Assembly (NCBI RefSeq): GCF_000204055.1
Contig: NW_006768769.1
Location: 1,105,794 to 1,169,793, forward strand
From: Melampsora larici-populina 98AG31
Taxonomy: Eukaryota > Basidiomycota > Pucciniomycetes > Pucciniales > Melampsoraceae
Reading direction: 5' to 3'
DNA length: 64,000 nucleotides
Below, in pieces: positions 18,610-53,559 of the stretch (its first letter is position 1; the number at the start of each line of letters is the position of its first letter). Under the pieces are notes generated by a model. It was given only the letters and a program-made list of their open reading frames with translations. It searched no databases and was not told the origin of the DNA. Both the position numbers and the translations under genes were made by a program.

Positions 18610-21428
18610 ATGGAACAAGTTCAACCATGGATCTGGTCAGCATGTCAAACTTATCTACAACAAACCGAACCATCTACCTCAATCTTAAATCCATCAAATC
18701 CCATCAGAACAGGAAACCTACAATTCATTCGATTCTTATCTAAACATTCATTTGGTGAAACTACTATCAATCATGATCATCAAACTTCTTCAATTTGGGC
18801 AGAAGGAATAGATGGAAATTTAAAAATTTATATTGAAATTAGTGATGAGATCTTGAAGAGATTTGAAGAAGATCAAGCTGCAGATAAGAGAAGGATTAGT
18901 AGTTTAAACTTTCCTGTGTTTTCATTAGGTGGATGTCGTTGGATTTGGGCTATTCCTCCTAATTTGAATTCAAACTTAAAGAAAGATCATCATGATATCA
19001 AACCAAAACTTAAACAATTATGTTTAAGGATTGTAAATGAATTACCCAAGAAGAAATTTAAATTTAAAGCAGAATTACCATTTAGGATACCAATTCTTAA
19101 TCAAGAAAATCTAATGGGTTCATTGAATCATCAATTAAAATCAGATCCAAAAGGTTTGATGTTTTTGGCGGCTGCTCAATTAGAGTTACAAATGAGACTT
19201 CGAATCCAATCTGATGATTCAAGTATCGGTACGTGCTTTACATTGATACTACGTAATCAGAACAGAAAAGAAAAAAGAAAAAAAAACTAAGAGAAAATGT
19301 ATTATTTCGAAAATTCATAGCTGAAAAACAAGCATCTGAATTTGCTCGTGGAATTGTAAGAATACCGATTATAAGAAGATCAACCAGAATTAAAAGAAAG
19401 AATAAACCAAATAATGGAAACCAACAAGATGTTACTAGTGCAATTCAAACAACCGAATCATTTCAAGAAGGGTTTGTTTACATTGAGGATCGAAGTTTTT
19501 CAAGAAACGGAGAAGGGGAAGGAAACGAAAGAAGGATTTATGATTTAAGACCGTTTGCTGAGATTGATGATCCGAAAGATAAGGTGGAAATCATTTCATC
19601 AATTCATGATACAGCGGTAGACAAACTACCGTCACTTGCAAGTTCTAGTAATGTTCAACCGACGAGAAGGATTAGCAGATTTATGTCAGATGAAGGTAAT
19701 CTTAATATACCCAACCAGAATGCGATGACGATATACCCATCAACTCGTCACTCTCCCTCAGACAAATTACCGTCACTTAGAGCTTCTAGTAGTGGTCAGT
19801 TGATAGAAGAACCGAGGAGAAGAATGAGCAGGTTTACGTCGTATGAAGGTAATCTTACTATACCCACCAAGGATACGATGACGATATACCCATCAACTCG
19901 TGACTCGCCCTCAGAAAAATCACCGTCACTTGGAACTCTCAGTAGTGTTCAGCTGATAGAAGAACCGAAGAGAAAGATGAACAGGTTTGCGTCAGATGAA
20001 GGCAATCTTACTATACCCAACAAGAATACGATGACGCTCAACCCATCAACTCGTGACTCGCCCTCGGACAAATTACCGTCACTTAGAGCTTCTCGCAGCT
20101 TTCAGTTGATAGAGAAACCGACGAGGGATCTGAGCAGGGTTCCGCCAGGTAGAGCCAGTACTACTATGCCCAGCATGAATTCGATGAAGAATAATCAAAT
20201 AACTCGTGCTCGGAACTCGCCTTCAGACAACTTACAATCACTTAAAACTTCATATAGCTTTCAGTCAGTAGAGAAACAGACTAAGGATCTGCGCAGGTTC
20301 CCATCAGGTAGAGCAAATACTACTATGCCCACCTTGAACCCGATGAAGAGCAATCAATCAATACGTGACTCACCTTCGGACAACTTGGCATCACCGAGAT
20401 TTTCCCGTAGCGTTCCGTTGATAGAGAAGCCGTCCAATGAGCGCAGCCGGGCCACATCAGATCAAAGCAATGTTATTATACCCACCAAGAATACGAAAAC
20501 GACTGACCAATCAACTCGTGACTCACCCTCAGAGAAATTGTCATCACTTGGAGCTTCCAGTAGCGTTCATTTGAAAGAGAAACCAGCAAAGGATCTGAGC
20601 AGGGTTCCGCCAGGTCGAGCCAGGACTACTATGCCCAGCATGAATTCGATGAAGGTTGATCAAATGACTCGTGCTCGGAACTCGCCTTCAAACAACTTAC
20701 AATCACTTAAAACTTCATATAGCTTTCAGTCAGTAGAGAAACAGACTAAGGAGCTGTGTAGATTCCCGTCAGGTAGAGCCAATACTACTATGCCCACCTT
20801 GAACCCGATGAAGAGCAATCAACCAATACGTGACTCACCTTCAGACCACTTAACATCACTGAGACTTTCCTGTGGCGTTCAGTTGATAGAGAAACCGACG
20901 AGTGAGCGCAGCCGGGTCACATCAGATGAAGGCAGCATTATTATACCCACCAAGAAGACGATAGCCATAGATTCTGAATCTACACGAGTCAATCCTACGT
21001 CTAATCATGTCGACCAACTGTTTAAAGCTCCCAACAGCATCCAGCGGGTGGAAAATTCAAGGAGTAGCATTGATCAAACTTACGCAGAGAAGACGAATTT
21101 TACAAGAGAAACTTTGATTGCATCAAAACATCCAAAACATCCAACTCCAATAGATTTAGCTTATGCTTCGAAATCAGTGGCCCCTACTCGACAACTTCGA
21201 TCATCTATCAATCCTGAACCCAGAAGTTCAAGTCGATTGAAATCTATACGACAAAGACTCGAATCGATTCCGATCTCAGCAGGAGTTGAACCCACCAAAA
21301 CAGTCACAGCATTTCAGAATGGAACAAGTAAACGAAAAGCAGAAGAAGTGACTAAATATCAAAAAGAATTTGTTGCAGCTAGAAGAAAAGCATTGATGAG
21401 AAATCGAATGAATTCTTCGAGATGTTAA
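18610..21428 (+). CDS. Possible TPP1/Est3-type OB-fold protein with 51-residue repeats (2 exons)
   Basis: Exons 18610-19228 and 19321-21428 join to 908 residues. The N-terminus (residues 1-150: QPWIWSACQTYL, GNLQFIRFLS, IWAEGIDGNLKIYIEIS, GGCRWIWAI) has the order of a telomere TPP1 OB fold: a PWI...L helix, a strand before a DG turn, then a Cys/Trp strand. This is a pattern judgement, not a proven match. Residues about 302-765 are nine degenerate 51-residue repeats built on R(D/N)SPSDxLxSL, (L/V)IEKP and (T/I)xP...M. Units 4-6 are duplicated as 7-9. The C-terminus is basic (RKAEEVTKYQ, ARRKALMRNRM). If truly TPP1, the protein would bridge telomere-bound Pot1 and telomerase. It could also be an unrelated nuclear protein. 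Confidence 0.4.
19600..20985 (+). repeat. Nine tandem ~153-bp coding repeats with a higher-order duplication
   Basis: Period of about 153-159 bases inside the TPP1-like gene. A TCACTT.GAAC/GCTTCT-type core and GATAGAGAAACCGACGAG recur. Units 4, 5 and 6 (about 20060-20510) match units 7, 8 and 9 (about 20515-20985) far better than neighbouring units match each other, so a three-unit block of about 465 bases was copied. Confidence 0.8.
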
Positions 21429-24808: not shown

Positions 24809-24817
24809 CGCCAAGCA

Positions 24818-25111
24818 CAAACTTAACTAAGTCCAACTCGCGTGGCCCCGTCGGTACAGGTACCACGTACCTCCGAGCGCCAGCGAGGGACTTACGCCTA
24901 ATCCCAATATTCAAGCGTGAGATCAGGGAGGGCTTTTGCCCAAAATCTCCTGTCGCACCTGCACTCTCTGTTTCATTATCAACGCGCGGTGAGCGTATAA
25001 TAAAAATTGGGCGCACCCCTGCTGTCTATCATTTGGCACTCTACATGGCTCATCGGCCCTAAAACTGAGAACAGCATGAGCTCAAATTCACTTGGCGCTA
25101 TCACCGGGGCC
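24818..25111 (+). repeat. Left terminal inverted repeat (294 bp)
   Basis: Begins CAAACTTAACTAAGTCC. The first about 75 bases can fold: AAGTCC.aa.CTCGC pairs with GCGAGGGACTT around a GC-rich loop containing GGTACAGGTACC. It ends in CACCGGGGCC. Confidence 0.85.
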
Positions 25112-25299
25112 GTACATGACTCAAGAGTGACTGCGGCGTCCAAGAGGCCTGTATCATGGACGAAATGGACAAAACCAGAATGACAAACTGCATTTTGTGA
25201 TTGAGCAGATCTCGCCAAGTACACAAAATCCACCACCTCATAGCTCCACCCTTGTCGTACCACAATATTTGTTCACTGCTTGCCCACCGTCCAACCAGA
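25112..25299. promoter_or_regulatory. Upstream region of the helicase gene
   Basis: 188 bases between the left TIR and the chosen helicase ATG. The same frame is open further upstream without a better ATG, so promoter and 5' UTR probably lie here and in the TIR. Confidence 0.4.
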
Positions 25300-27995
25300 A
25301 TGCTGCGTAGGAGTATTTCCGCGGCCAATGCCGAAAATCTAGCGCTGCGTATGGCCAAATCAATCACTGCACGGCCAAAACTGCGGAACGAACTGACTGG
25401 TGTCAGTGAAGAGCGCCAAGCCGAAATCATTGGCGAGCTATTCCTTTCGAAATATCTTTACCCCGCGCGAGCTCAGCAAATCGAGGCCGTGGTGCACCTG
25501 ATCAATGGAAGAAACACCTTCCTCTTGGCTGGTACCGGTTTCGAAAAGAGCCGTGTCCCCGAATTGCTTTATCTGGCATACGACGAGGGCTATGCGCCAA
25601 TTATCCTGAGCATCAACCCATTGGATGCTCTAGGAGACGATCAAGTCAGTGCCGATGGATTGGTCACTGTAATCATATCACTGACCACGCCTACATGTTG
25701 GTGTAACAGGTCAGCGAGAAAGAAAGTGTGCAGTTGAATGGTGTCAACTTAACTGGACCCAACTGCACCCGGGAGACCTCCGATGTGATACTCAAAGGGA
25801 AATATACTTTTGTCTATGTGGTATATACAATCGACTCGCCGTGGTCTTGATGTCCAAGATACTGACATGTTTTTTGGATGTTTAACCGGTGGTAGAGCCC
25901 AGAGATTGCGTTAACGAGTGATGTTTTCGATCGATTGTGGGCGGATCCAAATTTTCAGAGCAGGTTGGTGCTCAACGTGGTCGACGAAGCCCACATGGTA
26001 TATACCTGGGGGCTGGTCGAGTCCGGCCAAGCTAAAAGGTTGGCAAGCTGGACAAGAGTTCACGACGGCGGAGCCTTCAGACCCTCCTATGGACAACTAG
26101 CCCGGCGTTTCCTGGCCTCCGACAAGGTACCTCTGTTATTAATGTCCGCGACTTGTACTCCTCAAGCAATTCATGCGATTATTGTGAACCTTAAGTTGGA
26201 TTCACAAGATATACGTTTTGTACGCGCTGAACTAAGCCGTCCCGAATTGCGTCTGATACGAAGAACGTTCAAGCGACCCCTGAAAGCATCATTAAAGAAT
26301 CTATTCAGTCATCATACTTTCACTCCAACATCTTCTGTACCTCCAACTCTGATTTATTCGGGTACTCAAAATGCAACTCTGGATTACTTACAGCTCATTA
26401 ATCATGCCCGAGGTCAACCTTTTGAAACTAGCAACGGTGAATCTCATTTTGCACGCCGTTACCACGCCACCACCGGGGATAACGCGAAACTTTCCGCAGT
26501 GGAGGCATTTGTGAATGGAAATCTGCAAGTTATTTGCTGCACGCTCTCCCTTGGCCTAGGCCAGAACTGGCATCGCGTACGCCGTGTTGTTATTGTGGGA
26601 CGACAAGATCCCTGCAACTTTATCCAGATGTCTGGATGTTGCGGTCGCGATGGAACACGTGGCCTTGGTTTTCTTTTGGTCGAACATTGTCGAGCCAACG
26701 GCAAGAACGCCATTGAGGATTTCGATGATTGTTCAGTAATGAGTGATGATGACCAAATGGACGCCCTCGCTCTGACACCGGTCTGCCTGCGAGTGGCTCT
26801 GGCTGTGGATCTGGAGTAAGTGTTAGTTGGAATTTCTACAAGTAACGAATGCCTGTTGACATGGTGTTTGACACAGGCACGGCTACATCCCCTTACACGG
26901 TGATTCGTTGGTTGTAACTGCAGAAGTTACTCGTCAACGGGCGGCTGGAATGGCTGCCTGTGACTGCTCAAACTGTAAACCGGATGACGCGGAAGCGCTA
27001 TGGCTCGCACAACCCTGTCTCACCAACGCGAACTTTCAAGCGGCCCTTGACATGGATGAACTCCAGCTTCTCAACCTAATTGCAACACTCCCCAATACCC
27101 CACTGCCTCCGGTAGTTGACTTACCTCACGTCGCGATGCTCTGCGGTCCTGATGACCCCATTTTGGAGTGTCCCATACTTGAAAGACTAGTCACGCGTTT
27201 GGAACGCGCTTTCGCGGCCTTCTGGCACACACGCTACACTCAGCCTTGTCACCTAGGCCCCGACGATTACTTCGGACGAGATCTGGCATGGGACCTAGCC
27301 AAGAACGTGGATTTACTGCGTGAACCACATGATTTCGGTGTGGTACTAGCCAGCGAGGCCATCAAAGGCCAATACAACTGCCTCTTTGCAGCCTTGACAG
27401 AGTGGAAGGACAACGATTCTGCGACGGTGGCCATCTCGCAAGCGGCTGCGCGAAGGAAAGCGGTCTCACGCCCTCCAACAAAGCCTGTTCAGTCAGTCGA
27501 AGGAGCTCTTCTGTCAAAGCGCCGTGCCGACGCCGAAAAACTGGCCACCAAAGAGGCCAGGCTGCTCGAGAGACAGCAACTCGCGCTGGATAAGGCTAAT
27601 GAGAAGGCTGCCAACCTCGCGCGGAAGCTAGAGGAGAAGGCTCAAGCCGAGGAGGCTCGAGCCGCTTTGAAGGCGCAAGTGGCCCTTGAAAAGGCTCACT
27701 TGCGTGCCCAGCAGAAAGAGGCGCAAGCTTCTGCCACGTCTGATAAGCGGCGGAAACGTTCAGGAGGGTCTCAAGCTGACCCAGATCGTGCTAACAAGCG
27801 CGTATCACAGGTTGGTCATGTTCGCTGTTCATTCCATGGTGTATATTCATCATGTGCGCTAATGATGATTAATATGTACAATATTTCACTCCTCTCCAGG
27901 ATATTCCGCACTTTGACAGTCCCACGCTGACAACACGTCAGCAGCACCCCAGCGAAATCGGGATTTTCGACCCGCGACTAGGTCCGCGCGAATAA
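25300..27995 (+). CDS. RecQ-like superfamily 2 DNA helicase, transposon-borne (5 exons)
   Basis: Exons 25300-25644, 25710-25820, 25896-26815, 26877-27810 and 27900-27995 join to 801 residues without a stop. Motifs in order: a Q-like motif (ARAQQIEAV), motif I region AGTGFEKSRVPE, SPEIAL, DEAH box (VVDEAHMVYTWG), motif III (LLMSAT), YHATTGDNAK, CTLSLGLGQNW, motif VI region QMSGCCGRDG, a CDCSNC cysteine pair, then an Ala/Glu/Lys coiled coil. This layout is that of repeat-associated RecQ-like helicases of rust fungi. Two key positions are altered: motif I has Glu where GKS needs Gly (GFEKS), and motif VI has Cys for the first Arg (GCCGRDG rather than GRCGRDG). Both fit single C-to-T or G-to-A changes and should abolish ATPase activity. 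Its 3' end overlaps the DUF6589-type gene on the other strand. Confidence 0.85.
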
Positions 27996-30737
27996 GCTTC
28001 AGCATGTTCCGCTGACCGGCCTTCCATACGTTGGTAACGGCTGGAGATGGGCGTCTGGCCCGTGTTTTGCCCAAATGCTCTTTGGCATAAGCGAGGAATG
28101 CCAAAAGCGAGGGGACTGAGATGGCGTTGTGGTTGTTTTGGAATATCAAGGTGTGACCGGAGTGAATTTTGAACAGCTGCATGAGTTTTCAGAGCTGGGT
28201 CACGGCATAACCATCATGTCAGCTACTATCGCAATGCATTCAAGTTGATTCGAAGCATACCAAAGGGATAATGTTGGAAAGACGCTCAATGAGCCTTCTG
28301 ATATCCGTTCCATGACCCTGGGTGTACGCACATGAATGAGTCACAGCGTGTCATGATCTGCGAGGATGACAAAAGTGAGGAGGCGTTTGACTTAATCGCT
28401 CACAGTGTTGTTATAGACCCGCTTCAAATAAAAAATGCTGATTTCAAGATATTCATCTATTGGGAGCCAGTGATCCGATTGCCCGTTTGAGGGAATCAGA
28501 AGTGAATGCTTGATAGCATGTGCAATCGGTGCAGGCAGGTCTTATTCCAGGAGGAGTACGATTCGGGGGATATGTCTAGCATAATGAGATAGTCCCTGCA
28601 CCCATTGAGCCATCACGGCCCAAGTTTTCCACATAAGCATCAGTCGGCCTATATCTCCAGCACGTGTGGCCTCGTGCGCCTCGACGACCGTGGCGAAGTC
28701 TCGGAGTCTCAACATCAAGTTGTACCGTGTAGGGTCATCCATTTGCCTCGCGTTTTCAAGGGCTTTCCCGTCAAAGTATGTATTCCAAATAGTATCAAAG
28801 AGTCTTTGGCAGCTGGGAAGTTGTGTGAGATCGATTGTGGAATCTGACTCCAAGGTTTCGCTGGGGGTCAGCCCAATCTGTCAGTTAACCTTGCTCATTT
28901 GCCTGATACATTGGTACTTGGCGCTACTGGAACTAACCGTATGATATGGACGAGATTCGCTTTGTGGAGCAATCGGGTTGAACGCATGATAGTATTGAAG
29001 TCCTGGGACGCTACCGGTTTCTTGTACTCACCTCCCAAAGCAAACAAACTCCGCCACGCCCCCGAATCGTCGCCATTGTCCGATTTACCCCAATGGTGGG
29101 TTAGCAGCGCTTCGGTCACGTTCCACGTGGTGTGGGCCCCTCCGAAGATGGAGAGGACCCATTCCATGCCTTCTACCGAATCAATGGGTGGGTACCTTTT
29201 CATACGCAGACTTTCCAAAAGCTGATTTGAGCCAACATCTCCGCCAGCGACTAATAGGCTCTCCGCGTACTTCGTCTTATCCAAACCAATTTGTTTGATT
29301 ACCTCGTCAATTACGCGCGAAACCCCTTCATCAGAAGAATCGGGTGCGTCCATCATGCGCAGGAAATGAATATTAGCCTGATGCATTTTGATTGGGTCCA
29401 GCGGTGGCGGTTGTGTGGCCAACGTTGGCAAATTTGCGTGTTCTGGCGCCCCAGAAATCTGACCGACATGTTCGGCAAGAGCTTTTGCCAGTTGAGCTTT
29501 AACGACGGCAACCCAGTGGTCCGCTTCCGCAGGAGTAGGGCAAAATGAGGACATCTGGACCGTTTTGCGGTCGGCGCTAGCCATCGCGTCTAGGAAGGTC
29601 GATAATCGAGCCACTTCTTCACTACACTTAGCCTGTAAACAACTACGCACCACGATAAAGAACCCCCAGGTTCCGTGGAAAAGTCTTGATGACGCCTCGA
29701 TGCGAGTATTGTGAATCTTCAGATGGATGTCAATGTTGTCATAGATTAGTAAGGGCAGGAGCTTGTGATTTAATTTGAACAGCTCCATCATCCGGTCTTC
29801 TTGTAAGACTCGGAGATGTTCCATTGCTTGCAAAGTGCTACTCCTCGAAGTGGTCATGCCATGGCAGTTGAGCCACTCGTTGATTTGGCAAGATATCCCT
29901 CCTGCATATCCCATCAAAGCATTCGCCATTGGTAGAGCATTGCTACGGCGGTTGCACGTGAGACCTATCATCGCACACACCATGATGGGTACCTGGGAGG
30001 CAGGCGATTGTTATCAGTCTATAAATCGTAGATACTAGCAATGATGGCGCGCACCTTTGCGAGCTTGTGTGACACTTGATCTGCGAGTGTTCCCTTGACA
30101 TAAACCAGATTCTCCATCGACATCACCGTGGCGTCCTCGGCATTTTCGTCCAAACCAGGGCTACTCGCTAGATCGTCAATGAAGGAGGCAGTTGTCGAGG
30201 TGGAAGGTTGGGATAGGCCAGGCAATTGTTCGCCTTCAATGTCATCGAGGTCCTTGGGGTCTGCATGATTCAGGGCTTGGGCTAGCTTCCGATGGATTAG
30301 TGAGTATAGGAATCTCATCCCAGTCTTGACTTGGGCCTCGCGAAGGCCTTCTGATGCCTCACTAAAAAAGTCAGGCGTGATGCGATTAGAGCTGACGTAG
30401 GCGCCGGTTGGGAAATGGCCGCGAGGTAATTCCTGAGCAATTACTATTTCCGAAGCCTGGGTTAGATAGGACATCAACACTTGGTGAGTGTCTATCGCCA
30501 CAGTTGGAACATCAGACCATTAACCTCTTCCAAAATCAGATCCTCCCAGTCTCGGCGGCCCTCTGGGCAGGACTTCGAATGTTTTCCAAAATTCGTAATG
30601 ATTGAGCGAGTTTGTTCAAAACCCCGGCCAGTCTTCATCAGGCGTCGGCGATATACGATTTCGGGATCGGCAGATGACATGAACGTCACCATGAACTGTT
30701 TGGGAGCTAGATCCAGCTCAGCTAGGTATTTCAACAC
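27886..30737 (-). pseudogene. DUF6589-type protein gene, disrupted (candidate transposase)
   Basis: Segments read on the minus strand: 30492-30737 (ELDLAPKQFMVTFMSSADPE, then YRRRLM), 30055-30501 after a one-base frameshift near 30500, an intron ending at VPIMVCAMIGLTCN, 28895-29990 (LLIYDNIDIHLKIHN; GGDVGSNQLLESLR; FGGAHTTWNVTEALL), 28542-28860, and later pieces to about 27886 (GHGTDIRRLIERLSN; GAADVLSAWDC). The YDNI, GDxxxNQLL and HTTWN blocks in that order are what I associate with DUF6589 proteins of basidiomycete repeats. Breaks: the frameshift, and TAA at 28542-28544 in mid-frame followed by good coding (DLPAPIAHAIKHSLLIPSNG). The three Asp/His blocks could be a divergent RNase-H-like catalytic core (inference). 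The true N-terminus is not certain. Confidence 0.65.
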
Positions 30738-31512
30738 CTGAAGTGTTCAGGACACAGTGCTACTTGGTCGCAGGTTGGCCCGAGGTACTGCCTTAGGAGG
30801 CATCGAGGGTCAGTGGTAACGTCTTTAGCCACAATGTGGAAATATCAACTGGTCAGAGTCCAGATCCCAAGGTATGGAATCAGAACCGTCTCCACCTCTG
30901 TGTCTATTATTTCTCTGTGGCCATCTTAGTTGTAACATTCTTCCATCGATATTGAACCTGGTCAAATCCACCCAGGTGTTTACCTATCAAAGCCTCCAGG
31001 CCTAAACCCCGTTCTCGAGACAAACGGGGGAAGCTCCCAGGAGCGCAGGCATTCACTCCGCGCCTGGTGAAACGAATCGGTAAAGCAGGATCAATGGTGG
31101 TGCTCCCACACCATGCCCAAAAGGGGAAAATTGGCACGAGCAAGACTCATATTTAATCGCACGAGCAGTGCAAGTGCGCGTTTTCGCACAGGAAGCCTCC
31201 GTTTCGCTATTGAAGTGTTTGAGGCCAACAACCCCAAATAACAAAACCGATGGCCTGGCTTGGTGCGAATTACAATAACTCAAGTGACCATGTCCCAAAT
31301 GGGCAAGCGCGAGGACGTGGTCAACACGCTGCAGAGTTTCAGGCCGCGACACCACGTGTTGCGTTTCGCGGAAGAGTGGCAAATTGGGTCAGTCCAGCGG
31401 GTCCCTCGAAGGAGGTCCTTATAACTATCTCTCCACACTTGTGCTCTTGCGACCCTTCTGCATCACTTACACATAATTCCGGGTACCGTTGAAGCAAGGT
31501 TGAATCTTTCAC
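30738..31512. promoter_or_regulatory. Divergent intergenic region inside the outer element
   Basis: Between the 5' end of the DUF6589-type gene and the short plus-strand gene starting at 31513. GC-rich, with several short overlapping open frames on both strands but none with family similarity. It is probably the bidirectional promoter. Confidence 0.4.
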
Positions 31513-31744
31513 ATGATTCCGTACCACGACCCTCTGCTGGATCTTGACAGTGTGATTGGGAGAATCACGGATACCATCGAAGGGGAAGGGCTCACTGTCG
31601 ACACCTTCATAGACGCCGTGGATGGACCGTTGCCCACCTCGATTGCAGAAAATCAATCATTATCACCAGCGACTTTGACGCTATTTCGGCAGACTGTCGA
31701 AATAATTGAATTCATCGAGATCAGCAGCATGAATGTATGGGGGT
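31513..31744 (+). pseudogene. 5' part of a small DUF6589-N-terminus-like gene, cut by the KDZ insertion
   Basis: Open from ATG 31513 (MIPYHDPLLDLDSVIGRITD, then TIEGEGLTVDTFIDAV) to the KDZ insertion at 31745. GLTVDTFI resembles the LTPKxFM opening of DUF6589 proteins. After the KDZ element the frame continues (42212 onward), and a downstream exon-like stretch reads DGDTVWREFIQEQ, again like the W..FI..EA block of that family. It may be a second, shorter paralogue divergent from the main gene. Function unknown. Confidence 0.3.
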
Positions 31745-32070
31745 CACCTGTGGCTACCCGACGGCCCCGACATACTCCCTACATATAGACGAACCTTGAA
31801 GCCGGAGGACCTCCGTTATTGCGCATGCAGACATAACAGACGGATCAGACCTCCCCCTATTACACCTTTTCTCAACATTTCTCTCAAGGAGAAGGGGTTT
31901 TATGCTTTTCAGATCCCTTTGATCATCACACAATCAACCTGAGAAAATTTTTGAATTTTCAATCAAATGAAGTCAAAAATTGCAAGGTAGCAGACATGTC
32001 TGCATCCATCAGACATGTCTGCACCTATATGTAAGTCAGACATGTCTGTGTATGTAAATCAGACATGTCC
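31745..32070 (+). repeat. KDZ left terminal inverted repeat
   Basis: Matches 41878-42203 in inverse orientation through TCAAATGAAGTCAAAAATTG and the first AGACATGTCTG copies, with scattered mismatches. The boundary is approximate. Confidence 0.8.
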
Positions 32071-32096
32071 GTGATCAAAACAAAGTCAGACATCAG
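31992..32096. repeat. Left subterminal AGACATGTCTG palindrome array
   Basis: Three perfect and about two degenerate copies (AGACATGTCCG, CAGACACATCTG) of an 11-base palindrome, spaced about 18-27 bases. Probably transposase binding sites by analogy with subterminal arrays of other DNA transposons. Confidence 0.7.
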
Positions 32097-32659
32097 ACAC
32101 ATCTGCACATGTACCATTCCCCATCCACCCATCAATTCTACCCACCAATCCATCCATCACGATTCTTCACCTTCCATTGATGAAATCGAATCACCGCTCA
32201 AAGACACCAACTCCACCAACAGAGTTATCAATTCTCAAGACACATCATGCATCTCAAGATCGACCGTACCAGCAATCATCTGAATATTGAAATACCGATC
32301 AAAAGCCTCAAACTAAAACAAATAGAGTTACATTGTACAACAAAGATCTTTATGCAGCTCAATTCATATCATTCATCAATGCAATCTATGCAGCTCGACA
32401 CCAACCGCACTGGAATTATCTTTATCTGTTCTATCAACTGAAGACTGAAACACGGATCGAAAGCTTAAAACAAAAACAAAGAGATCTACATTTTCACACT
32501 ATGCAGCTCAACACCGATTGGACCAACCACACTACGCAGCTCAACAAATAACGACCGGACCAATCACATCCAGAAGTGACCTTGTCATTATTCATATCAT
32601 CTCGATCTATCCTTGTTCCCCACTTCTAAACTCTCTCAATCACTCCAACTCCGAAAACT

Positions 32660-35600
32660 ATGGCCGACTCTACTGACATCCAAGGACTCTATTCAAAGCC
32701 AGCAAAGAAGAAACCTCGTAAGAAAATGAGCCGTTCCGCCCAGCAACAGGCTGAGATGGACAAGCTTGACGAAGAATGGCAGCAACCAAAGATCAACGCA
32801 CTTCACACAGCCTTACAACCACCTGTACCAGATGTTCCCCCGGCTCAAGATCACCCTGTTCCGGACCTCGCCTATCTACTTGATCTCCGTCTAGAAGATC
32901 AACCACCTCCACTCAACATCGATCCTCATCCCAATCCTGATGAACAGCCAAACGCGCCTCCCCAAAACTTCACTCAACATGTCTCCAGCGATGATTATCA
33001 CATTCGACGACTTCGAGAATATGAGCAATGGAAAATTGTCTTGCGACCTATGTTTGTAGCGTACATGCAATGTGCAGATAAGACATCTGAATGGTGGGAT
33101 GAGCAAGTGTGGAATACGGATTTTCACCGGTGCTCGTGTAAGGTTAAAGAAGGATCCGGGCGGTTTGTAGATTTAATTGATATATTTTGTAAGTTTCATT
33201 TTTTATTGACAGTTTCATTTCATCATGTCTTCTCTATCCGCTATGAGATTCTATATCTAGATATAGGCTGACAGATACGTCTTACAACATACAGCTCGCA
33301 AGAAGCAGAAGATCAAATTCTGTGATTGCCCCGACCAGGTTCGGTTAATCAACATGGGTTATATAGGCGGAACCCCGACCCACCCAGCAACCGCGTTCTC
33401 TATCCGAGTCCTTCGACACTATCACTTACTATGGAAATTCTCCTCAACAGCAATCCAACCGTTCTGCCTCTCCTTAGACAGGGGTCTAGATGCTCACAGT
33501 CCACTAATTTTAGTCGAAGGCACAAACGAGGTAAGTCCTGATTTCACAAGATGTTCTAGTACCACAGATATTAACCATATTCTTTAGCCTCGTCTTTGGC
33601 GAAAGCCTTTCTCATGCGCGGTCGACGCCTACCGTCATATGATTTGGATGGAGGATGAGCTTTCAGTCAAAGCTATGGACCTCTCTCCAATCGAGCAGCT
33701 TGCGGCCAATTGCCCTCGATGTTATGGACCAGCAGCACCAATTGCAGACCTCAAGCCCAATGTAGAGGATCAAAAAGATGAACCAGATTTCATCATTTGC
33801 TTCGATGGGAACTTTCAGCAATGGCGACACCTTGCAGCAAGCCAAGAATATAGCAATATCGAGATCACGTACCCGTCTTTATTTTTAGACGCCAAGTTTG
33901 TGGATCAATGGAAACCTGGACCTGGATCAGTTCGAAATAAGGGACGCGAAGAGCCATTGGTGCGTGTTACTTCACAATCACATGATTCTTTTTGTCTCAT
34001 GCTGATATGCCTCGAAAATGATTGTTTAGGATGTGTGTTCTGCATCACACACCGCCGCTGACGACACACGCAATGCTTCATCTTTCAAAGGGTCTGATGA
34101 GTCAGGATTGCTAGGAATGGCGTGTAGGCACGACCACTGCCTGTCCTTTGTCAATATTGTACAGAGCGGGGAGAAGTGTGTAATCTTACTATATCCTTCT
34201 CACACTCTTAAAGTTACACTACGGAAGATCACTGATGTTCTCAATTGACTCGCTTAATGCGTGTCAGAGCTTATTTTGTCCATGCTATGTTAGCCAACTT
34301 CCTTTCAAAGACCAACGAGGATCAGAGTGATCCAAAGCGAGTCGGAATCTTATACGACATTGGTTGTAATCTAGAGAAGGGTATCATCAAGGTTTGTATA
34401 TTTCATTTCCCATTGACCTGTAGTTGAAGCTCATCGTGGATCGATCAAATTCTAGCACAATCTGTTTCAACAAGAACGTGCGAATGGTCAGCTGAAAGTT
34501 GGAACCAGCGCATGGCATGCTTTGGTGCACATATACTCATGTCAACTGAAGTATAATCCACGGCTTCAGAAGGGATTTGGGAGGTCTGATGGTGAAGGTC
34601 TGGAACAAATATGGCGGCGTCTGTCACCGCTCATCAGTTATCTCCGTTATTCATCCAAACAACATCGACTGGATGCCTTGAACTTACTAGCTCTCCATAT
34701 AAATGAGCTCTGTCGGATCAATGCAGGTTTGTCTCACTGTGCTATCATCTTACAAAACTATGTGTCTGACAAAGAAATACATTCCTATCCCTGATGTTTC
34801 AGCACGCTCAGCAGCACACAAACTGACTAAACACGAATCAGATATCAGGATTGCACAGCAAACCCTAGCTCAACTCAATCAAGGACCCAATGCTCAACCT
34901 CGCGAGTATTTTGCGGACCAGTGGGAGAGAAAACGAACTTGCCTACTTGCTTTCTCGACAGACAATACTTCTGCTCGTCTTGAAAAAACTTTAGCTCGGC
35001 TTATTGACCTTGAAGAACAATTACATTCTGCGCAGTGAGTATCATTACCTTCATCTCCCCTCCTACGAAATGACTGTTACTTACTCTCTTTTTGTGCAGT
35101 GTCAAAGTCACCGCGATTCGCTCTAAAAGGCGTAATCAAAGATCAGCAAGTGATGTTGCTGAGCTTGACGATCTACCATCCTCAATACTCCTGATTGAGA
35201 ATGCAATGGAGGAGGTCGCGTGCGAGCTTGGTGGGGATGAGTTCAAGAATCATCCTGCAGTCAAAGGTAAGCAGATCTTCTGTGTTGACATGTTTGCATA
35301 GTAGATTTTGACACGTGCTACTTATCGGATAGATCCTCAAGCCCGTGCAATAGTACGAGTCCGAGTGGCGAAAGGGAAACTTTACGAAGCAAAAGTTGGA
35401 ATCATTGAATTGCAGCGTGATTGGGACGAGCCCCGCCAAGGTAGGTGTCCTGTGGCCTTCTTGGTTTATTGTTTATTTAGACTGGTACTCTCAGGAACCC
35501 GGTCTCAGCAGCGATATAAAGATCTAATGCGAGGTAAACAGAAGGCCTTTCAACAAAAGTATATGGCTTACATCCGACAAGTCAAGAAGTTCAACACAGC

Positions 35601-36394
35601 CTGTCCGCATAGGCAGCAGCGCCTACCACTACCTACTCTTCAAACGGTCAAAGGCTATATGATTGAAGACGAGTTTTGGAATATTGGCAACCTCACCCAC
35701 CCAAACGAGCCTTGGGTGAATGACAGACTTACTCGAATTGGCATCGAAGCCTTCTTGACAGAAAGGAGTTGTCAAGAAGAACTGCGTCGAGTCGCTCACG
35801 AGATTTGCGCCATGATGCGCTCCGCTGTACAGAGCTACAATCACCTTAGAGCTCTAAGTATTATGACAACTCGGTGTAAGTTGATATGTGATTTTCTTTT
35901 GATTTTACATATTTGAAAATTTGATTACATGTCTTTTAGGTTGGGATCCCCTCTGTCCAAATCGAAGTCAACCAATCAAGCTAGTGCATCAAAGCAACTT
36001 GGTATCCCGGAAATTACATGATGAAAGCATGACCGTGTTGAAGGTCCTACACAAAAATCTTCTCCAGAAAGAATGTCGGACTTGGATGGTTTGGCAATCT
36101 CACATTCCCACTCTTCTACTCAAAACACAGCAATATTCTGATACTACCACAGAATCTGATCACACATTACTAAAATCGTGGCAGGAAATCCTTTTGAATT
36201 CTGTAGAAGTCTGGGAGGGTATGGTCAAAGGACCTATGTTCACTGCTGAAGCATTGGATCAGGACGAAATATTAGAACAGCAGTTTTTTATTGGTGATGG
36301 TGCAGCTGATGAGACTCCAGACAACGATGATGATGGATATGAAGAGGATGAGGTTGGCGGGAATGATGAAAGAGATGATATAGGACAGTATTGA
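32660..36394 (+). CDS. KDZ-family transposase with CxC1-like N-terminus (11 exons)
   Basis: Exons 32660-33188, 33295-33530, 33588-33959, 34030-34175, 34268-34391, 34456-34726, 34803-35034, 35100-35266, 35333-35440, 35495-35875 and 35940-36394 join in phase to 916 residues with no stop. The N-terminus is charged and Pro-rich. CSCK and KIKFCDCPD form a cysteine cluster of the kind associated with KDZ transposases. Core blocks follow: FIICFDGNFQQWRH (first Asp), DESGLLGMACRHDHCLSF, RVGILYDIGCNLEKGI (second Asp), GRSDGEGLEQIWRRLSPL (the Glu-bearing GEG..W signature). These are the RNase-H-like catalytic landmarks of KDZ transposases, which cut and paste DNA between long inverted repeats. The C-terminus is acidic. 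No lesion was seen, so it could be active. Confidence 0.92.
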
Positions 36395-38005
36395 GCACTG
36401 GCTTGTTGTGTGTGATCGATTACTCTATTGTTGTAACACATTGTTCATTATATGTGAATCAATAAGATCACAGTTGCAATTTTTTGTACTCTTGGTTTTG
36501 GAATACTCGGTGATTAATACCATCCATACCTATATTTAAATTTTTTTTTTCTGCAATTTTACACAAATGTTCTATTCTTTTGAATTCTCTGAAACTGTGG
36601 TTGATGATGACTTGAGTGGAGTCATGCAGTGGAGAGAATATCATCAGGTACAATTTCTCACCGGTGCAATTTCTTGATTACATGATCATCCTGTGATCAA
36701 CTTCTCCTAATCTCCTGATCATCATATTGACATGAGAAATATCTATAATCTGTATTAGCTCATCTGTGTTTAACTTCGCTCACTTTAATTATAAACGTTT
36801 ATGTTTTATTTCGAGTGCCAAAAGTTATAACCTTTTAATTTTGAACAATCAACAATAGAAAAGTATTACAATACTTTTCAAACAATTATAAGTGATGATG
36901 TTGACGGATGAGGAAAGTTATTGCTTTTTGTTCTTGAACAATTTGACTATGTTCAACTTTAGTCACTTGATTACTTTGATCTTGAGAGCCAAAACTCATG
37001 ACTTTTGGCTCTCTGACAATCAACAACTCCCAAAAAACCACGTATTCACAATTTTAGGATGTGTGGAAGTACTTCACTTCGATGATGGATGAGGAAGTCT
37101 TTGCTTCTCCATTCTCGAACAATTGATTCCAGATTTTATCATGTTTTGCTGTTCAGGATTTGATGATCATTGAAACTGGTTTATAATTTCGCACTTTATT
37201 AGATATCTTCAATCTATTCAATCTTAATCTATCTTTCATTCACACTACTAGTACCATTGGTGTCCCAACCAAGTTATCCAAAATATTGCATTAGTCTGGT
37301 AAATTTATAACCTTTAACTCTCTATCTTATGAATAAAACTAACTCATCTTCTTTTGATTGATATGTTTCTTTTCAGTCGAGATCAAACAACCAATCTTCT
37401 TCGGTTTATATCTTATTTGTACTGTTAGCATTCATCAATGGATATATAAACCAAAAGTATTAAACAAATATTCATTATGACACCGGTGCATTATGTCCAA
37501 AACCTTTGCTTTTCGGGAATCGAGTCAAGATAGAAATAAGCAGCCACGTAATTGACTTCAATAAGCTCATAAGTCTCAAACTCCGATGAAGTTTTCAGGT
37601 TTTCAACACACACACACAAACAATATCATGAGTATGATTGACAATTCCCAATTGTACTCATGATTGAGAAATATCAAACAAGTTCAACCACGAATTTGGT
37701 GCTTACCAATTGTGTCCTTTCAAAGCTTTCAAACAAACCTATTCTCAACTTGTCATGAGTTTGAATTGATCACTGCAAACCAGCGAGCAAACTTTCAATC
37801 TAGCACAGTTAAAATGTCAACATTCGTACAACACCCATAATATCAGGCGCACATCACATGAGTGTTAATGGTTGGAAAAGTACAAGGATACTCAGTTCAC
37901 TTGCACCCTTGAAGGGTGCATTTGCAACTTTGAACAGGCATAAAATATGACTAGTCACCACTTCTTGTAGAAATAAGCAATTTTTTTAGACATGACTTAT
38001 ACCTT

Positions 38006-38083
38006 ATAATTATCATTGATGATAATTCACGAGTTATGACTCTCATAATTATCATTGATGATAATTCACGAGTTATGACTCTC
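38006..38083. repeat. 39-bp tandem repeat, 2 copies
   Basis: The unit contains ATAATTATCATTGATGATAA followed by TTCACGAGTTATGACTCTC. The copies are identical apart from the end of the second. ATTATCATTGATGATAAT is itself a palindrome. Confidence 0.85.
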
Positions 38084-38532
38084 AAAAAACTGATTACGCA
38101 CTGGTAAAGTTTGTATTATTAGATGTTGTATCATTAGATGAAGTGGTTTGTGGAATCCAGACATAACTTCAGACAGTAATGCAACTTGGATTCTTATTTG
38201 AGTTGATTACAAGATAAAAATTTGAAAACAATCTTGGAAGGTGTTGGTGAACAACCAAATCTTACAATTGCTGATTCTAACTGGTGAATTTGCAGCCTAC
38301 ACTATTTTTTTCAATGATTTTTTTCAACCAGTAGATGACTTACAAATCGACGGAAACATTACATAATTCATTCAAATCACAAGTGTCACAATTTGATCAG
38401 TGAGAACTTCTCAACAAGCAGACATGAAATTCAAAGTGAAAGTTTACGATGACATATTTGATAAAACACAAACAACACAAACAAATCAATAAAAGGAATG
38501 TTACCATAGCCATAGGAACAGGTACATCGCGT

Positions 38533-38613
38533 ACCATGAGAAAAGATAGCCAAGTCCTAACCATGAGAAAAGATAGCCAAGTCCTAACCATGAGAAAAGA
38601 TAGCCAAGTCCTA
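38533..38613. repeat. 27-bp tandem repeat, 3 copies
   Basis: Three near-identical units of ACCATGAGAAAAGATAGCCA AGTCCTA, just downstream of the stop of the second KDZ gene. Confidence 0.9.
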
Positions 38614-38641
38614 TTCAGCTACACATAATCATTAAACCTGA

Positions 38642-40573
38642 TTAAATTCCAACTTCTTCACCTCCACCATCACTATCTTCGTCAGCACTTCCTCGAGCTT
38701 TTTCACCTCCACTATCCTCATCATCACCATTTCCTCTTGAAGATTCATCAATCTCATCATCAACAGGCCTACCATCTTCAGTCTCCCTGCACGCATCCTT
38801 ATCCTTATGAATCAATTGAAATTGAAAAAGATTGGCGTCAATATCGTGCTGCCAACGCCTTCGACCAGCCGCATTCATCTCGACAAAGCCTTTAGCTAAG
38901 TCCTCCGCTGTCAGAGTGGAGCCGGGAAGCTGTACTATGCGTACAGGTTTGTCTTTTCTTGAGGCCAAAGACTTGTCGATATTAGGACCGCGGGGCAAGC
39001 CTCTCGGCTTCTCGCCAATGGTAGCAGCTGAAATGAGATTCAAAGCCAAGAGTGGAATGAATAAGATGGGGAAAACAAGGAGGAGCGAGAATCAAACTCC
39101 TTACTTAATAATCTAACCAACTCCTGTCCAAGAGCGACCTTTTCACAATCAGATTTATTCTTTCGAGGTTGCGACTTGATGACATGAGAGCCGGTGGCTT
39201 GCGATACAGCCTGGATAAGCGATGTTCCTTGAGATACTGCACCAAAGATTGTAGGGAAATTGGCCTTTTGTGTGACCCATTTTGTCATGACAGGGAGAGT
39301 CGTGGTAACTTTGCACCATGTCAAAGTACCAGGTTGGAGAGGAGGAACTGAGCTCGATGCGACTAGCCAAAAGTCAAATTCGTGGCGGTGAGAATCTGCA
39401 ATAAGCTGGTGAACAAAAGAGACATAAGGGGCCTTTGTTTAGTTTTGTAACAATCTTAACAAGGAGTATAACGAATATGGAAAATAATACTTACATCACG
39501 CTGGTACTTTTGAATGCATCGTAGAGATCGCCGAGTGAACGTCGCATCCGTCATTCCTGGAATAGACACACCAAATCTGGCGACAACCTTATCGTGGTTA
39601 ACTAATTCGTCGTAGATCGGTCGGTAGCGGGCTTCTTCCTCTTCGGTTCGCTGAGTCACTTCAGGGACAAGTACCTCGGTATCACCTTGCGCTTGGTCAT
39701 CGTCATCATCCTCAACATGGTCTGCAGCAAGATCGGGTACCCCAGCCAATGCAAGAAGCATGGAATGCTCGAAAATTGCTTTTTGATCAGCATTGAGCTC
39801 AGACCAGTTGTCACCAGTGGCTCGATTATAGCTACCCAGCTTCTCTGTAATATCGTCGTCATCAGGGTGAGGCACTGCATGTCAAACAAGACAGTTGTTA
39901 GTTTCTATGAAATGTAATACACAAAAGTAGACAAAACAACTTACTGGGATCGGTATGTGATTGTTTGCCAAATATTCGGAAGTAAAGGTATGCACTCTGA
40001 CCTTGCTTTTTGGGAGCAGCAACTCTAAAAAACAGTCCAAAAGTGAAATGAGGAGTGTGAATCAGGTAGAATGGGCAAAGTGACTTACTGTTTGTTTACT
40101 GTGCGTAAGCTACATCTTAATGCCAACGCCATCATCATCTTCAAGTGCTCGTACTTACGGATCAATGCCTTAATTTCCTCTTTACCGTCTTTTGAAGCGC
40201 GACCTTTGAACTTGAGGGAAAGTCTTTCCTTACAACGTGAGGGAGTCCATCTTTTCATCATCTCCTCGGTATTGTAGTTTTCAACGGTTGGAAGCTCGTT
40301 GGTGTCGTCAGATGAGATGTCAAGCAAGGAAGAGTGTGGTTGGGTTGAGTTGGAAATGGATTGGGTGATGACAGGAGAGGGATCTTGAGCTCTGGTGTTG
40401 TTGGTATCTTCGGCAGAGTCATCGAGATCAGAGTCGTCAGAATTGTGGCGGACACGCTTGCGCAATCGGACAGCTCGGGGTTTTTTCTTCTGACTGGCGG
40501 CTGGGGCTGATTTAGGTTGGAGACTAGAGTTGGGTGCCGCATTGACGGCTTTCTGGGATCGAGTGGACCGCAT
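38642..40573 (-). CDS. KDZ-borne accessory protein, function unknown (5 exons)
   Basis: Exons 40089-40573, 39945-40024, 39495-39874, 39105-39432 and 38642-39027 (minus strand) join in phase to 552 residues. The N-terminus is basic and Ser-rich (nuclear-type KKKPRAVRLRKRVRH). Then come an RxxxRCKERLSLKFKGR block, a Tyr-rich FRIFGKQ segment, an acidic stretch, IPGMTDATFTRRSLRCIQ, a middle domain with LTWCKVTTTLPVMTKWVTQK, and a strongly acidic Asp/Glu/Gly tail. I recognise no enzyme motif. Its place within the TIRs, convergent with the transposase, and its intact frame suggest it is a maintained element gene, perhaps DNA-binding or a regulator. This is inference. Confidence 0.75.
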
Positions 40574-40653
40574 GGTATTGGTGAGAATATAGGGATGATA
40601 TTTGGAATGGGAGGAGTAGTCGGTATGGGGAGATGGGGATCAAGAGGAAGCAA

Positions 40654-41600
40654 GAGGAAAGAATTGTTAAATTTAATTTGAATAGGAAAGAATTGTTAAA
40701 TTTAATTTGAATAACGACTTAGTTAAGTTTGCTTGAATAATGAGTAATTTGATACATAGCACAGGCAGGGTCAATAATGAGGTGGGTGAAGTGTGTCAGG
40801 GCCATTCGAGGCCACGTGCTGGTTGACCGAGGTATGGGTTTTCCGGCTGCCTGACATAACAGGCAAGACCTTCTGACCTATACCATTGGTTGTAGGTTGT
40901 ATGTAGGTTTCCTGGGAAAACCTACGGTGATGATACACCCAAACAAGTGTGGCTAGTACCGGTTTTTGTCCATACAGTCTTCCTTGCCCTATTCAAACAA
41001 AATTAACTCTTACTTTGTATGTATACAGTCCTTGCTCTCAACATCTGATTTAATTGAGTCATTTGTTCATTTTAAGCTTTCGAATCGATCCATTCTGGAA
41101 TGATAAGGGGTGTCTCGATGAATTTGAAAACAAAATTTATGAAGACCCTCTAAGGGATGTGTAGGCCAAACTAAAAACAAGTTTTATAAAGGTTTTCTAA
41201 TCTCACGGAAAAAGTAACGCCAAAGACAATGAGTGATGATAGAGTACCACATAGAATAGTAAGACAATATCATCTTATAAGTTCACATGTGAGACACTAT
41301 TGTAGGTGCAAGATGTGATTTGTGACGTACAAGATTATTTCTAATGCAGAGACTTGGTAGCCTTTTGTACTTACAGGAGTGACCAATGAGAGCAAAGTTG
41401 ATTCTAATATACCGATTTGGCAGACTTGTATAGGGCGGGAGTGAGTGGTCAATTGGAGCGAAGCAATAAACAGGACCTCTCGGAAGATGAATCACACAAT
41501 ATGAGTATCCTTTAGGAGAAGCATGTGAGCGACTACATATCAGTGATCAGGATTGAAGCAATGTGACAACCTCCTCTTCATGCCGATTTGGTCGTATATC
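40654..41600. other. KDZ non-coding region upstream of the accessory gene
   Basis: Contains the promoter side of the minus-strand gene and a direct duplication of a GAAAGAATTGTTAAATTTAA block at about 40655-40710. No other gene was seen. Confidence 0.55.
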
Positions 41601-41615
41601 TGGTGTGAGATGTCT

Positions 41616-41964
41616 GCTACAGACATGTCTGAATTACAGGCGAGGATAGACAGAGTGTAGACATGTTTGATCTTTAGATCGCAGACATGTCTGTTGTGCA
41701 GCGCGCAGACACGTCTGATGAGTGAAGTGTGCAGACATGTCTGATCTCTAGATTGCAGACATGTCTGATCTCTAGATGGCAGACATGTCTGATCTCTGGG
41801 TCGCAGACATGTCTGTTGTGCAGCTTGCAGACACGTCTGACGGGCGAAGTGTGCAGACATGTCTGATTTACATACACAGACATGTCTGATTTACATACAC
41901 AGACATGTCTGACTTACATATAGGTGCAGACATGTCTGATGGATGCAGACATGTCTGCTACCTT
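41616..41964. repeat. Right subterminal AGACATGTCTG palindrome array (~14 copies, ~24-bp period)
   Basis: CAGACATGTCTG recurs about every 24 bases between 41690 and 41950 with a few CAGACACGTCTG and TAGACATGTTTG variants. Spacers fall into families (ATCTCTAGATTG, ATTTACATACA), showing expansion by unit duplication. The array extends about 350 bases, much longer than at the left end. Confidence 0.9.
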
Positions 41965-42203
41965 GCAATTTTTGACTTCATTTGATTGAAAATTCAAAAA
42001 ATTTCTCAGGTTGGTTTTGTGATGATCAAAGGGATCTGAAAAGCATAAAACCCCTTCTCCTTGAGAGAAATGTTGAAAAAAGGTGTAATAGGGGGAGGTC
42101 TGATCCGTCTGTTATGTCTGCATGCGCAATAACGGAGGTCCTCCGGCTTCAAGGTCCGTCTATATGTAGGGAGTATGTCGGGGCCGTCGGGTAGCCACAG
42201 GTG
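41878..42203 (-). repeat. KDZ right terminal inverted repeat
   Basis: Inverse of 31745-32070, ending in CCGTCGGGTAGCCACAGGTG against the ATGGGGGT duplication. Confidence 0.8.
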
Positions 42204-42211
42204 ATGGGGGT

Positions 42212-42759
42212 TCATCTTCAATTTCCTCGATCATCGTTTCCTTCGCCGACGACCCCAGCGACACGACCTTTGAGGTAATACTCGCCAGTCGCGCCTATTG
42301 ATCCGAAATATCTTGATGAGCATACGGGGATGTATCTATGACGCAGGAGATGGCGACACTGTCTGGCGCGAGTTTATTCAGGAACAGGTCAGGCATTTCT
42401 TGCTATTATCACGTCTATGACCTGGTATTAATGATATCGTGCATAACCTCTCAGGCAGACGAGCTTCGCATCAACATCGACGAACTTGGAAGCTCGCCTG
42501 AATTCTCTGTCTGATGGCAGTTGGTCTCACCTAGGCAAACATGGTACGTGATACAACATTACCAAAAACTATGGCCATTTGTCAATACTGATTCGACAAT
42601 GCCAGCTTCTCTCCTGGAGGAAACTTTCTATCTTGTGGAATGAATGCATTATTTTGAGTAACGTGCCCTATCCCAAACTGCAGTTTGGACTGTAGTTAAA
42701 TTCCGTCGTGATCAAAACCTTTTGGACGCGCAGCGTTTGGAACACATGTAGACAAACGT
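42212..42759 (+). pseudogene. Continuation of the interrupted outer-element gene and right interior
   Basis: With KDZ and one ATGGGGGT removed, the frame from 31513 continues here. An exon-like stretch (about 42310-42385) encodes IRGCIYDAGDGDTVWREFIQ, followed after a GTCAGG...CTCTCAG intron by ADELRINIDELGSSPEFSV and a stop near 42513. The rest up to 42759 has no feature. Exon joins are tentative. Confidence 0.3.
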
Positions 42760-43053
42760 GGCCCCGGTGATTGCGCCAAGTGAATTTGAGCTCATGCTGT
42801 TCTCAGTTTTAGGGCCGATGAGCCATGTAGAGTGCCAAATGATAGACAGCAGGGGTGCGCCCAATTTTTATTATACGCTCACCGCGCGTTGATAATGAAA
42901 CAGAGAGTGCAGGTGCGACAGGAGATTTTGGGCAAAAGCCCTCCCTGATCTCACGCTTGAATATTGGGATTAGGCGTAAGTCCCTCGCTGGCGCTCGGAG
43001 GTACGTGGTACCTGTACCGACGGGGCCACGCGAGTTGGACTTAGTTAAGTTTG
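42760..43053 (-). repeat. Right terminal inverted repeat of the outer element (294 bp)
   Basis: Inverse of 24818-25111 with one substitution by eye. It ends in GGACTTAGTTAAGTTTG, followed directly by CGCCAAGCA. Confidence 0.85.
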
Positions 43054-43062
43054 CGCCAAGCA

Positions 43063-52999: not shown

Positions 53000-53453
53000 G
53001 GTCTCATACTAACTTAACTAAGTCCCTCCTCAAAGCGCGCGCGTCCTTCGGAGCTTGCGGAGGAGGGACTTACGACTTATCGGCAAATTTGGCCTGATAC
53101 CAAATCCAAATTTGGGATTTTCAGCGATTTTTGGTCAAAATCAACACTATCCTTGCCGCGATTGTCGATATCAAAAGTTTGAATAGGGCAAGTTTTTCCT
53201 CTGCATCTTGTACACATACTCCCTCAAACTTGAAAGGACTTCAAAATGATGCCTTGTCTTCAAGTTTCTTTGAAAAAGTGTAATTTTGACAAGATCAATC
53301 ATACCACTGCGGATGGTTTATCAAAGAGGTATGTAAGAGCATCCGCACTCGTGCGTTAACTCGGGTGCGGTAAGGTAAAATTTAACGCAAATGCGGGGCC
53401 TTTCCCACACTGGTGAGAAATTAGCCCCGCGGTAGTTAATTTTTGATTGGTTT

Positions 53454-53491
53454 GCGTTAGCCATTTGGTAAATTTACCAATTGGCTAACGC
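53454..53491. repeat. Near-perfect 38-bp palindrome
   Basis: GCGTTAGCCA...GGTAAATTTACC...TTGGCTAACGC folds on itself almost completely. Confidence 0.7.
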
Positions 53492-53512
53492 ATGCGGTAG
53501 CCAATCATCACG

Positions 53513-53559
53513 CAAACTTATCAAAGTCCACTCGCACTGGCCCCGTCGGTAAGGTACCC
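53513..53559 (+). repeat. Fragment homologous to the terminus of the 18-kb element
   Basis: CAAACTTATCAAAGTCC, CTCGC, TGGCCCCGTCGGTA and AGGTACC occur in the same order and spacing as at 24818-24865 with a few differences. It is a decayed solo end or a captured fragment. Confidence 0.7.

Follow-up and report, generated by a model that had tools for sequence, protein, structure and literature searches.

A helicase- and DUF6589-bearing DNA transposon family in Melampsora larici-populina, most likely AcademH-like, with paired arms just inside its tips

Why would a DNA transposon carry a RecQ-like helicase gene next to a gene for a DUF6589 protein, and to what kind of transposon do such genes belong? 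The question is raised by a 64,000-nucleotide stretch of the Melampsora larici-populina 98AG31 genome (contig NW_006768769.1, positions 1,105,794 to 1,169,793; hereafter, the window), in which a DNA transposon occupies positions 24818-43053. It spans 18,236 bases, including a nested KDZ-type element of 10,461 bases. Helicase and DUF6589 genes travel together within one element family, and we think it probable that the window element belongs to a large family of the AcademH kind, with DUF6589 as its transposase and the helicase acting on hairpins at the tips or in repair. AcademH is reportedly a lineage of the Academ superfamily, attributed to Kojima in 2020. The family is real and well bounded and is most likely of a kind already described; its interest lies in the tips and in the reading of DUF6589, not in a new class.

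Boundaries, parts and relatives of the element

The boundaries of the window copy are sharp. In a self-BLAST of the window, positions 24818-25111 align with 43053-42760 on the minus strand over 294 bases at 99.66% identity (E = 3e-153), which bears out the terminal inverted repeats (TIRs) with one mismatch given in an initial annotation made by eye. The exact repeat reported there on both sides was also recovered: a 9-bp target site duplication (TSD), CGCCAAGCA, abuts both outer edges, and the match ends at nine, the tenth base being different. Between the TIRs lie helicase pieces on the plus strand, DUF6589 pieces on the minus strand, and a short third open reading frame (ORF). These three genes and their coordinates stand as annotated, and removing the nested KDZ element (18,236 minus 10,461 bases) agrees with the length of about 7.8 kb proposed for the original insertion. 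The parts of the copy are as follows.

24809..24817, unstranded: left TSD, CGCCAAGCA
24818..25111, plus: left TIR, 294 bp, tip CAAACTTAACTAAGTCC, 99.66% identical to the right TIR
24829..24893, plus: subterminal hairpin of the left TIR, AAGTCC..CTCGC / GCGAG..GGACTT (z -4.1; 0/200 shuffles as good)
25300..25650, plus: helicase piece H1, region of what we take to be motif I; limits approximate
25896..26816, plus: helicase piece H2, DEAH box and Helicase_C, RecQ-like, with what is presumably motif VI
26872..27930, plus: helicase piece H3, C-terminal extension, no Pfam match
28542..28880, minus: DUF6589 gene, C-terminal piece, Pfam match
28895..30010, minus: DUF6589 gene, central piece, probable transposase core (PF20231, E = 3e-32)
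30019..30519, minus: DUF6589 gene, N-terminal piece, no Pfam match, conserved in other copies
31510..31743, plus: third ORF, first part, broken by the nested element
31744..42204, plus: nested KDZ-type transposon, 330-bp TIRs, 6-bp duplication TGGGGG
42205..42390, plus: third ORF, second part
42760..43053, minus: right TIR, 294 bp, from the self-BLAST
42978..43042, minus: subterminal hairpin of the right TIR, identical in sequence to the left one
43054..43062, unstranded: right TSD, CGCCAAGCA

Relatives were sought in the whole genome assembly (98.3 Mb, 243 contigs), where the window TIR matched 40 scored places. We sampled 20 stretches at 18 sites of these places, and another four surrounding gene pairs that are more distant. 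In 17 elements, the window copy among them, both ends could be located, and all 17 have an exact 9-bp TSD if a shift of one base at an end is allowed. Left out of this first set were L027, L028, L030 and L031, with one end or none, as well as L033 and L035; the ends of L033 were located later, beyond the stretch first taken. A further 15 pairs were read from the tip pattern, and exact 9-bp TSDs flank 11 of them (all five long pairs and six of the ten short ones). Overall, the 9-base duplication that the initial annotation had led one to expect is exact in 28 of 32 end pairs. There are 754 occurrences of the tip pattern, CWAACYTANNNAAGTCC, across the genome, compared with 16 of a reversed control pattern, and the end pattern of the window is thus more than chance. 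Members of the family move as units with CAAACTTA/CTAACYTA tips, duplicating 9 bp of the target.

Empty sites had also been predicted, and here the prediction holds for a gene-bearing copy elsewhere in the same genome but not for the window copy, whose flanks are unique within this assembly. When the flanks of L014 (8.2 kb, gene-bearing) are joined over a single TSD, they match uninterrupted places at 150/151 and 148/150 bases. The shorter L021 (1.7 kb) also has an empty site with a single TSD, 98% identical along 190 bases; two more places match at 92% over almost the full length. Eight sites were tried for matches to joined flanks: that of L014 was clean; for L018, L022, L025 and L036, the junction was spanned by matches at 75-96%, which were left unaligned, the target for L036 carrying about nine more bases; and L017, L026 and L034 gave no empty-site match in the genome.

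Some of these observations count against the main reading. Four of the later pairs depart from the exact 9-bp TSD: in one it is 8 bp long, in another it is 9 bp but includes a mismatch, and in two there is no duplication. The relatives of the L016 site have 11 extra bases at the junction, and because of this difference L016 was not used as empty-site support. L016 itself (contig C7) sits in a palindromic repeat, of which three other aligned copies have 11 more bases at the insertion point.

The window contains further traces of such elements. A second, older copy of the same kind lies at 53009-54670, with a left tip, CTAACTTAACTAAGTCCC, in which a hairpin can be seen by eye, a decayed right tip, and a 9-bp duplication, GGTCTCATA, at 53000-53008 and 54671-54679. 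At 48860-48920 there is a tip of another family, CTAACCTAACAAAGTCCC, with a hairpin obvious by eye, and further single tips occur at 53513 and 57159.

Paired arms and homogenised repeats at the tips

When the first 110 bases of the ends were folded as single strands, a stem between (T)AAGTCC and GGACTT(A), starting some 11 bases in from the tip, appeared in all 16 long elements that were folded. The outer bases of the stem are common to the families, and the inner bases vary yet still pair, as CTCGC/GCGAG, CCTGGA/TCCAGG, CTCTC/GAGAG, CTCGTGCCTC/GAGGCACGAG or ATGCTGAGACA/TGTCTCAGCAT, depending on the family. Covariation was measured in 12 family representatives of 27 left ends, chosen to have less than 65% arm identity. 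The mean pairing energy of the arms is -10.4 kcal/mol within a family and -6.3 across families, and none of 100,000 permutations reached the observed total. Arms shifted as controls have nearly no excess (-5.7 versus -5.1 and -4.8 versus -4.6). A family's own arms are the fourth-best partner or better in all 12 families, and all 12 tips fold better than the mean of their shuffled versions (z from -2.1 to -9.1), with 0/200 shuffles as good in 10 of them. The tips of the nested KDZ element, taken as controls, have no such hairpin (z +0.76 and +0.86).

Two of the results count against the main reading. The own arms are the best partner in only 7 of the 12 families, and the tip of an unrelated insert in element L017, one of two unrelated TIRs folded, also has a hairpin (z -3.05), which shows that hairpins at the tips are found outside this family as well.

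The paired arms could instead be two inverted copies of a double-stranded site bound by a protein, an explanation to which we give close to an even chance. Matched changes in both arms would be expected here too, TAAGTCCC is found in both arms in many families, and the shortest derivatives, inspected by eye, have at least one end without a complete hairpin of its own. What speaks for a hairpin is that the distance between the arms varies widely (the hairpin spans 39-69 bases), which is unusual for sites that are bound together, and that the helicase supplies a reason for single strands to be present.

A second property of the ends is that they are alike within an element and divergent between elements. 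Compared along 250 bases, the left and right end of an element share 97-100% identity in 13 of 15 cases and 94.4% in L016. The two ends agree at 109-110 of 110 tip bases in another five long copies; in seven short copies they do so at 71 to 107 of 110, compared without gaps. The left ends of 11 main-subfamily elements are only 70-87% identical to one another (mean 77.5, 55 pairs). Therefore, the two ends of a lineage must be kept alike through copying or conversion; the homogenised pattern is directly visible in the sequences, and the process that we infer from it would be one of these two. The long copy L034 goes against this pattern, its TIRs being 74.4% identical in the 250-base alignment and 85% over 193 bases. 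For comparison, the TIRs of the nested KDZ element are likewise 98.2% alike.

Dating by TIR divergence was dropped: the outer TIRs, at 99.7%, would seem younger than those of the element nested between them, at 98.2%. TIR divergence is no clock, because insertion does not generate both TIRs from a single template.

The ends also persist in very small elements. Elements of 69, 73, 75, 83 and 105 bp retain an exact 9-bp TSD, and those of 73 and 105 bp fold from end to end into a single hairpin. The sequence needed in cis may thus be no more than a few tens of bases at each tip, and the 69-105-bp derivatives hint at how little of the ends is needed; they may also be deletions that followed the insertion of a longer element. 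On contigs C1-C4, 8 of the 20 gene-less end pairs measure 570-587 bp, roughly what two TIRs placed back to back would make up, and have the look of a miniature inverted-repeat transposable element (MITE) class.

A possible mechanism can be put together from these features. The DUF6589 protein, as a putative DDE-type transposase, would cut and join the tips with a 9-bp stagger, the movement being presumably cut-and-paste. The RecQ-like helicase would unwind the ends or intermediates, such that the hairpin 11 bases inside the tip forms or is resolved. The helicase might also aid repair, the paired ends allowing one TIR to be copied from the other; such helicase-aided repair would explain the near-identical long TIRs within one copy. 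Short derivatives, down to 69 bp, were probably moved in trans. A stronger form of the proposal, that the ends are recognised as extruded hairpins, the helicase opening the tip, the transposase acting on the structure and repair rewriting one TIR, is attractive but in our judgement doubtful. If true, it would amount to structure-guided, helicase-dependent transposition by a eukaryotic TIR element and would explain the helicase of AcademH. The covarying hairpin is, in any case, a concrete and testable answer to the question of why a DNA transposon carries a RecQ-like helicase. Our literature search for such hairpins and for TIR homogenisation was shallow, and we make no claim that the hairpins, the homogenised TIRs or the 69-105-bp derivatives are new to science.

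The genes and their linkage to the ends

The helicase is best described as a distant RecQ-like enzyme, because piece H2, which matches TIGR01389 (E = 7e-13) as well as solved RecQ, WRN and BLM chains, scores far below the NCBIfam cut-offs. The helicase of the window copy differs from the 12 other copies compared at two conserved residues, one in each of motifs I and VI. Together with the nested insertion, these changes indicate that the window copy is probably inactive, damaged by the KDZ element and probably by the two motif changes. Several other copies also have stops or motif changes in the helicase, so that none could be taken as a working copy, which counts against the main reading. Two insertions into helicase genes were seen in relatives. 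About 2.8 kb of DNA interrupts the gene in L022/L023 (contig C8), and the helicase of the C30 copy holds an 816-base insert (L017, 6752-7567) with 330-base inverted ends that are 92% alike; it has no sequence match to the nested KDZ element of the window, though the arm length is equal.

Two DUF6589 pieces of the window copy match PF20231 (E = 3e-32 and 1e-14). Relatives numbered 60 proteins in one search and 31 in an alignment search, each of which scored a limited set of candidates, and the named ones are all rust proteins. A 13-sequence alignment (A2) has invariant acidic residues that include D301, D304, D468, E628 and D637 (P0001 numbering), a layout that would suit a DDE enzyme but is suggestive only. 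On the other side, a profile search against solved structures gave no significant match, returning two weak and unrelated chains, so that a transposase role for DUF6589 is something we infer. It is plausible that DUF6589 is the recombinase and the helicase its partner.

The third ORF lies beyond DUF6589 and is divergent from it, running for 144 and 181 codons from stop to stop in the two query copies. It is present in the window copy, in L024 and in nine other long copies, the matches in L025 and L026 being weak, and was not found in L034, L035 and L036 or in the short copies L013, L016 and L021. The gene has no Pfam match and one relative in a protein search that requires shared short words, from the same species; our guess would be a DNA-binding or regulatory helper. 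In the window copy, it is split at 31743/42205 by the nested KDZ element, which has CxC1 and KDZ domains, 330-bp inverted ends that are 98.2% alike and TGGGGG on either side, and which lies outside the family described here. Elsewhere in the window, 19657-20961 holds tandem repeats, which match one another directly when offset by 153 and 465 bases and are 72-88% alike.

These genes could belong to a new superfamily that merely resembles AcademH, the DUF6589 transposase being unrelated to that of Academ and the RecQ-like helicase independently recruited. RecQ helicases are not confined to a single superfamily, as the available excerpts on KolobokH show, and the named DUF6589 relatives, within the limited candidate sets scored, come only from rusts. 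The literature searched also contains no mention of "DUF6589", and "PF20231" occurs in it once, in an unrelated optics paper; thus no printed link from the Pfam family to such transposons was found there, though the original AcademH paper or Repbase may hold one. We nevertheless consider a new superfamily unlikely, since the excerpted descriptions of AcademH agree with the family in helicase type, TSD length and host group, and silence in print is weak, Pfam names often being unlinked to the names of transposon superfamilies.

The helicase and DUF6589 genes are closely linked to each other. DUF6589 matches were merged into at least 130 loci and helicase matches into at least 129. Among the matches listed, a helicase lies no more than 12 kb from 110 of 130 DUF6589 loci, compared with a random mean of 4.2 and a maximum of 11 in 500 trials, which supports the initial annotation in placing both genes in a single element family. 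Seen from the helicase, DUF6589 lies within 12 kb at 110 of the 129 loci listed, with a median distance between starts of 3.05 kb, and the gene order is convergent in 107 of the 110 loci. DUF6589 proteins that are "hypothetical" or "uncharacterized" in rust records can, at these 110 loci, be read together with the helicase as the genes of one transposon family.

Linkage to the ends was followed on contigs C1-C4, where 98 tips among the matches listed form 26 facing end pairs within 15 kb. By the gene lists, both genes are present in all six pairs longer than 5 kb, and neither gene is present in the 20 shorter pairs, which range from 69 bp to 3.9 kb; L024 (1.8 kb), counted as short and gene-less, retains a helicase fragment and the third ORF. 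The initial annotation had named TIRs without the genes in most copies as a result that would speak against it. Literally, this is what was found, in 20 of 26 pairs, but the lengths of the 20 are those expected of non-autonomous derivatives, and the pairs longer than 5 kb all carry both genes. Further points against the main reading are that no partner lies within 12 kb of 20 of the 130 DUF6589 loci and 19 of the 129 helicase loci, among the matches listed, and that exact tip matches bracket only 6 of the 13 gene pairs on these contigs.

The gene-less pairs are also what would favour an outside origin of the helicase and DUF6589 genes, in the host or elsewhere, with a TIR element having picked them up as cargo and its own transposase lying in another place. 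This we consider very improbable, although the long copies were not systematically searched for another transposase. Besides the long pairs on C1-C4, the window copy and all eight further pairs longer than 5 kb from the TIR search hold both genes; L034 and L036, which were picked by their genes, proved to end in tips of this kind despite helicases only 55% and 42% like that of the window; and the order is convergent in 107 of the 110 loci. "Cargo", the word used in the initial annotation, is thus probably the wrong one: the long pairs examined contain the genes and the short ones lack them, as would be expected of genes for mobility. A segmental inverted duplication, which the long and nearly identical arms might bring to mind, has a negligible chance and is refuted by the exact TSDs in 28/32 pairs, the empty sites and the 754 tips.

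Comparison with AcademH and other known systems

Several known systems share single features with the family, compared here, where published, through the available excerpts of the sources. Helitrons have neither TIRs nor target duplications and are ruled out by the presence of both. Kolobok elements duplicate TTAA, and the 9-bp duplications here vary in sequence. KolobokH is, like the present elements, a fungal DNA transposon with a RecQ helicase, which in its excerpted description lies downstream of the transposase domain; here, the helicase is a separate, convergent gene. Subtelomeric fungal repeats also contain repeated RecQ-like helicase genes, but they are subtelomeric, and their excerpts mention no TIRs or target duplications. 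Elements of the IS608 type use enzymes of the HUH class. They have subterminal structures just inside their ends (PMC6006769, in the excerpt), as the present family does, but move through single-stranded circular intermediates, and the likeness is an analogy only.

The closest system is AcademH. According to the available text of Kojima and Bao, AcademH has TSDs of 9 or 10 bp and AcademX of 3 or 4 bp, and the TSD length of Academ elements seems to be tied to the encoded helicase or nuclease (PMC10045372). In a survey of 625 fungal genomes, as excerpted, 81% of Academ copies had recognisable protein domains, such as DEAD/DEAH helicase and recQ_fam (PMC6416283). A later screen, in the part consulted, reports AcademH at low copy in Basidiomycota, Ascomycota and Mucoromycota (PMC10799480), and a rust transposon paper, in its available portion, calls Academ a recently identified type (PMC12210899). 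The statement in the initial annotation that no described family has this composition is therefore not supported: AcademH combines a helicase with a 9- or 10-bp TSD, and fungal Academ elements include recQ_fam. AcademX would belong to the same superfamily if the AcademH filing holds, but it has a nuclease instead of a helicase, and its short TSDs differ from the 9 bp duplicated here.

Set against AcademH as excerpted, the M. larici-populina family differs in abundance, with more than 100 gene-bearing loci compared with the low copy number reported. Long homogenised TIRs, tip hairpins, 69-105-bp derivatives and a third gene go unmentioned for AcademH in those excerpts, though some of these features may be described in the original paper or in Repbase. 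The two share a helicase gene, a 9-bp TSD (28/32 pairs here), TIRs and a fungal host, here in the Basidiomycota. Because helicase, duplication length, TIRs and host agree, with homology of the transposases lying outside this comparison, the family is most likely AcademH-like, and we file it as such.

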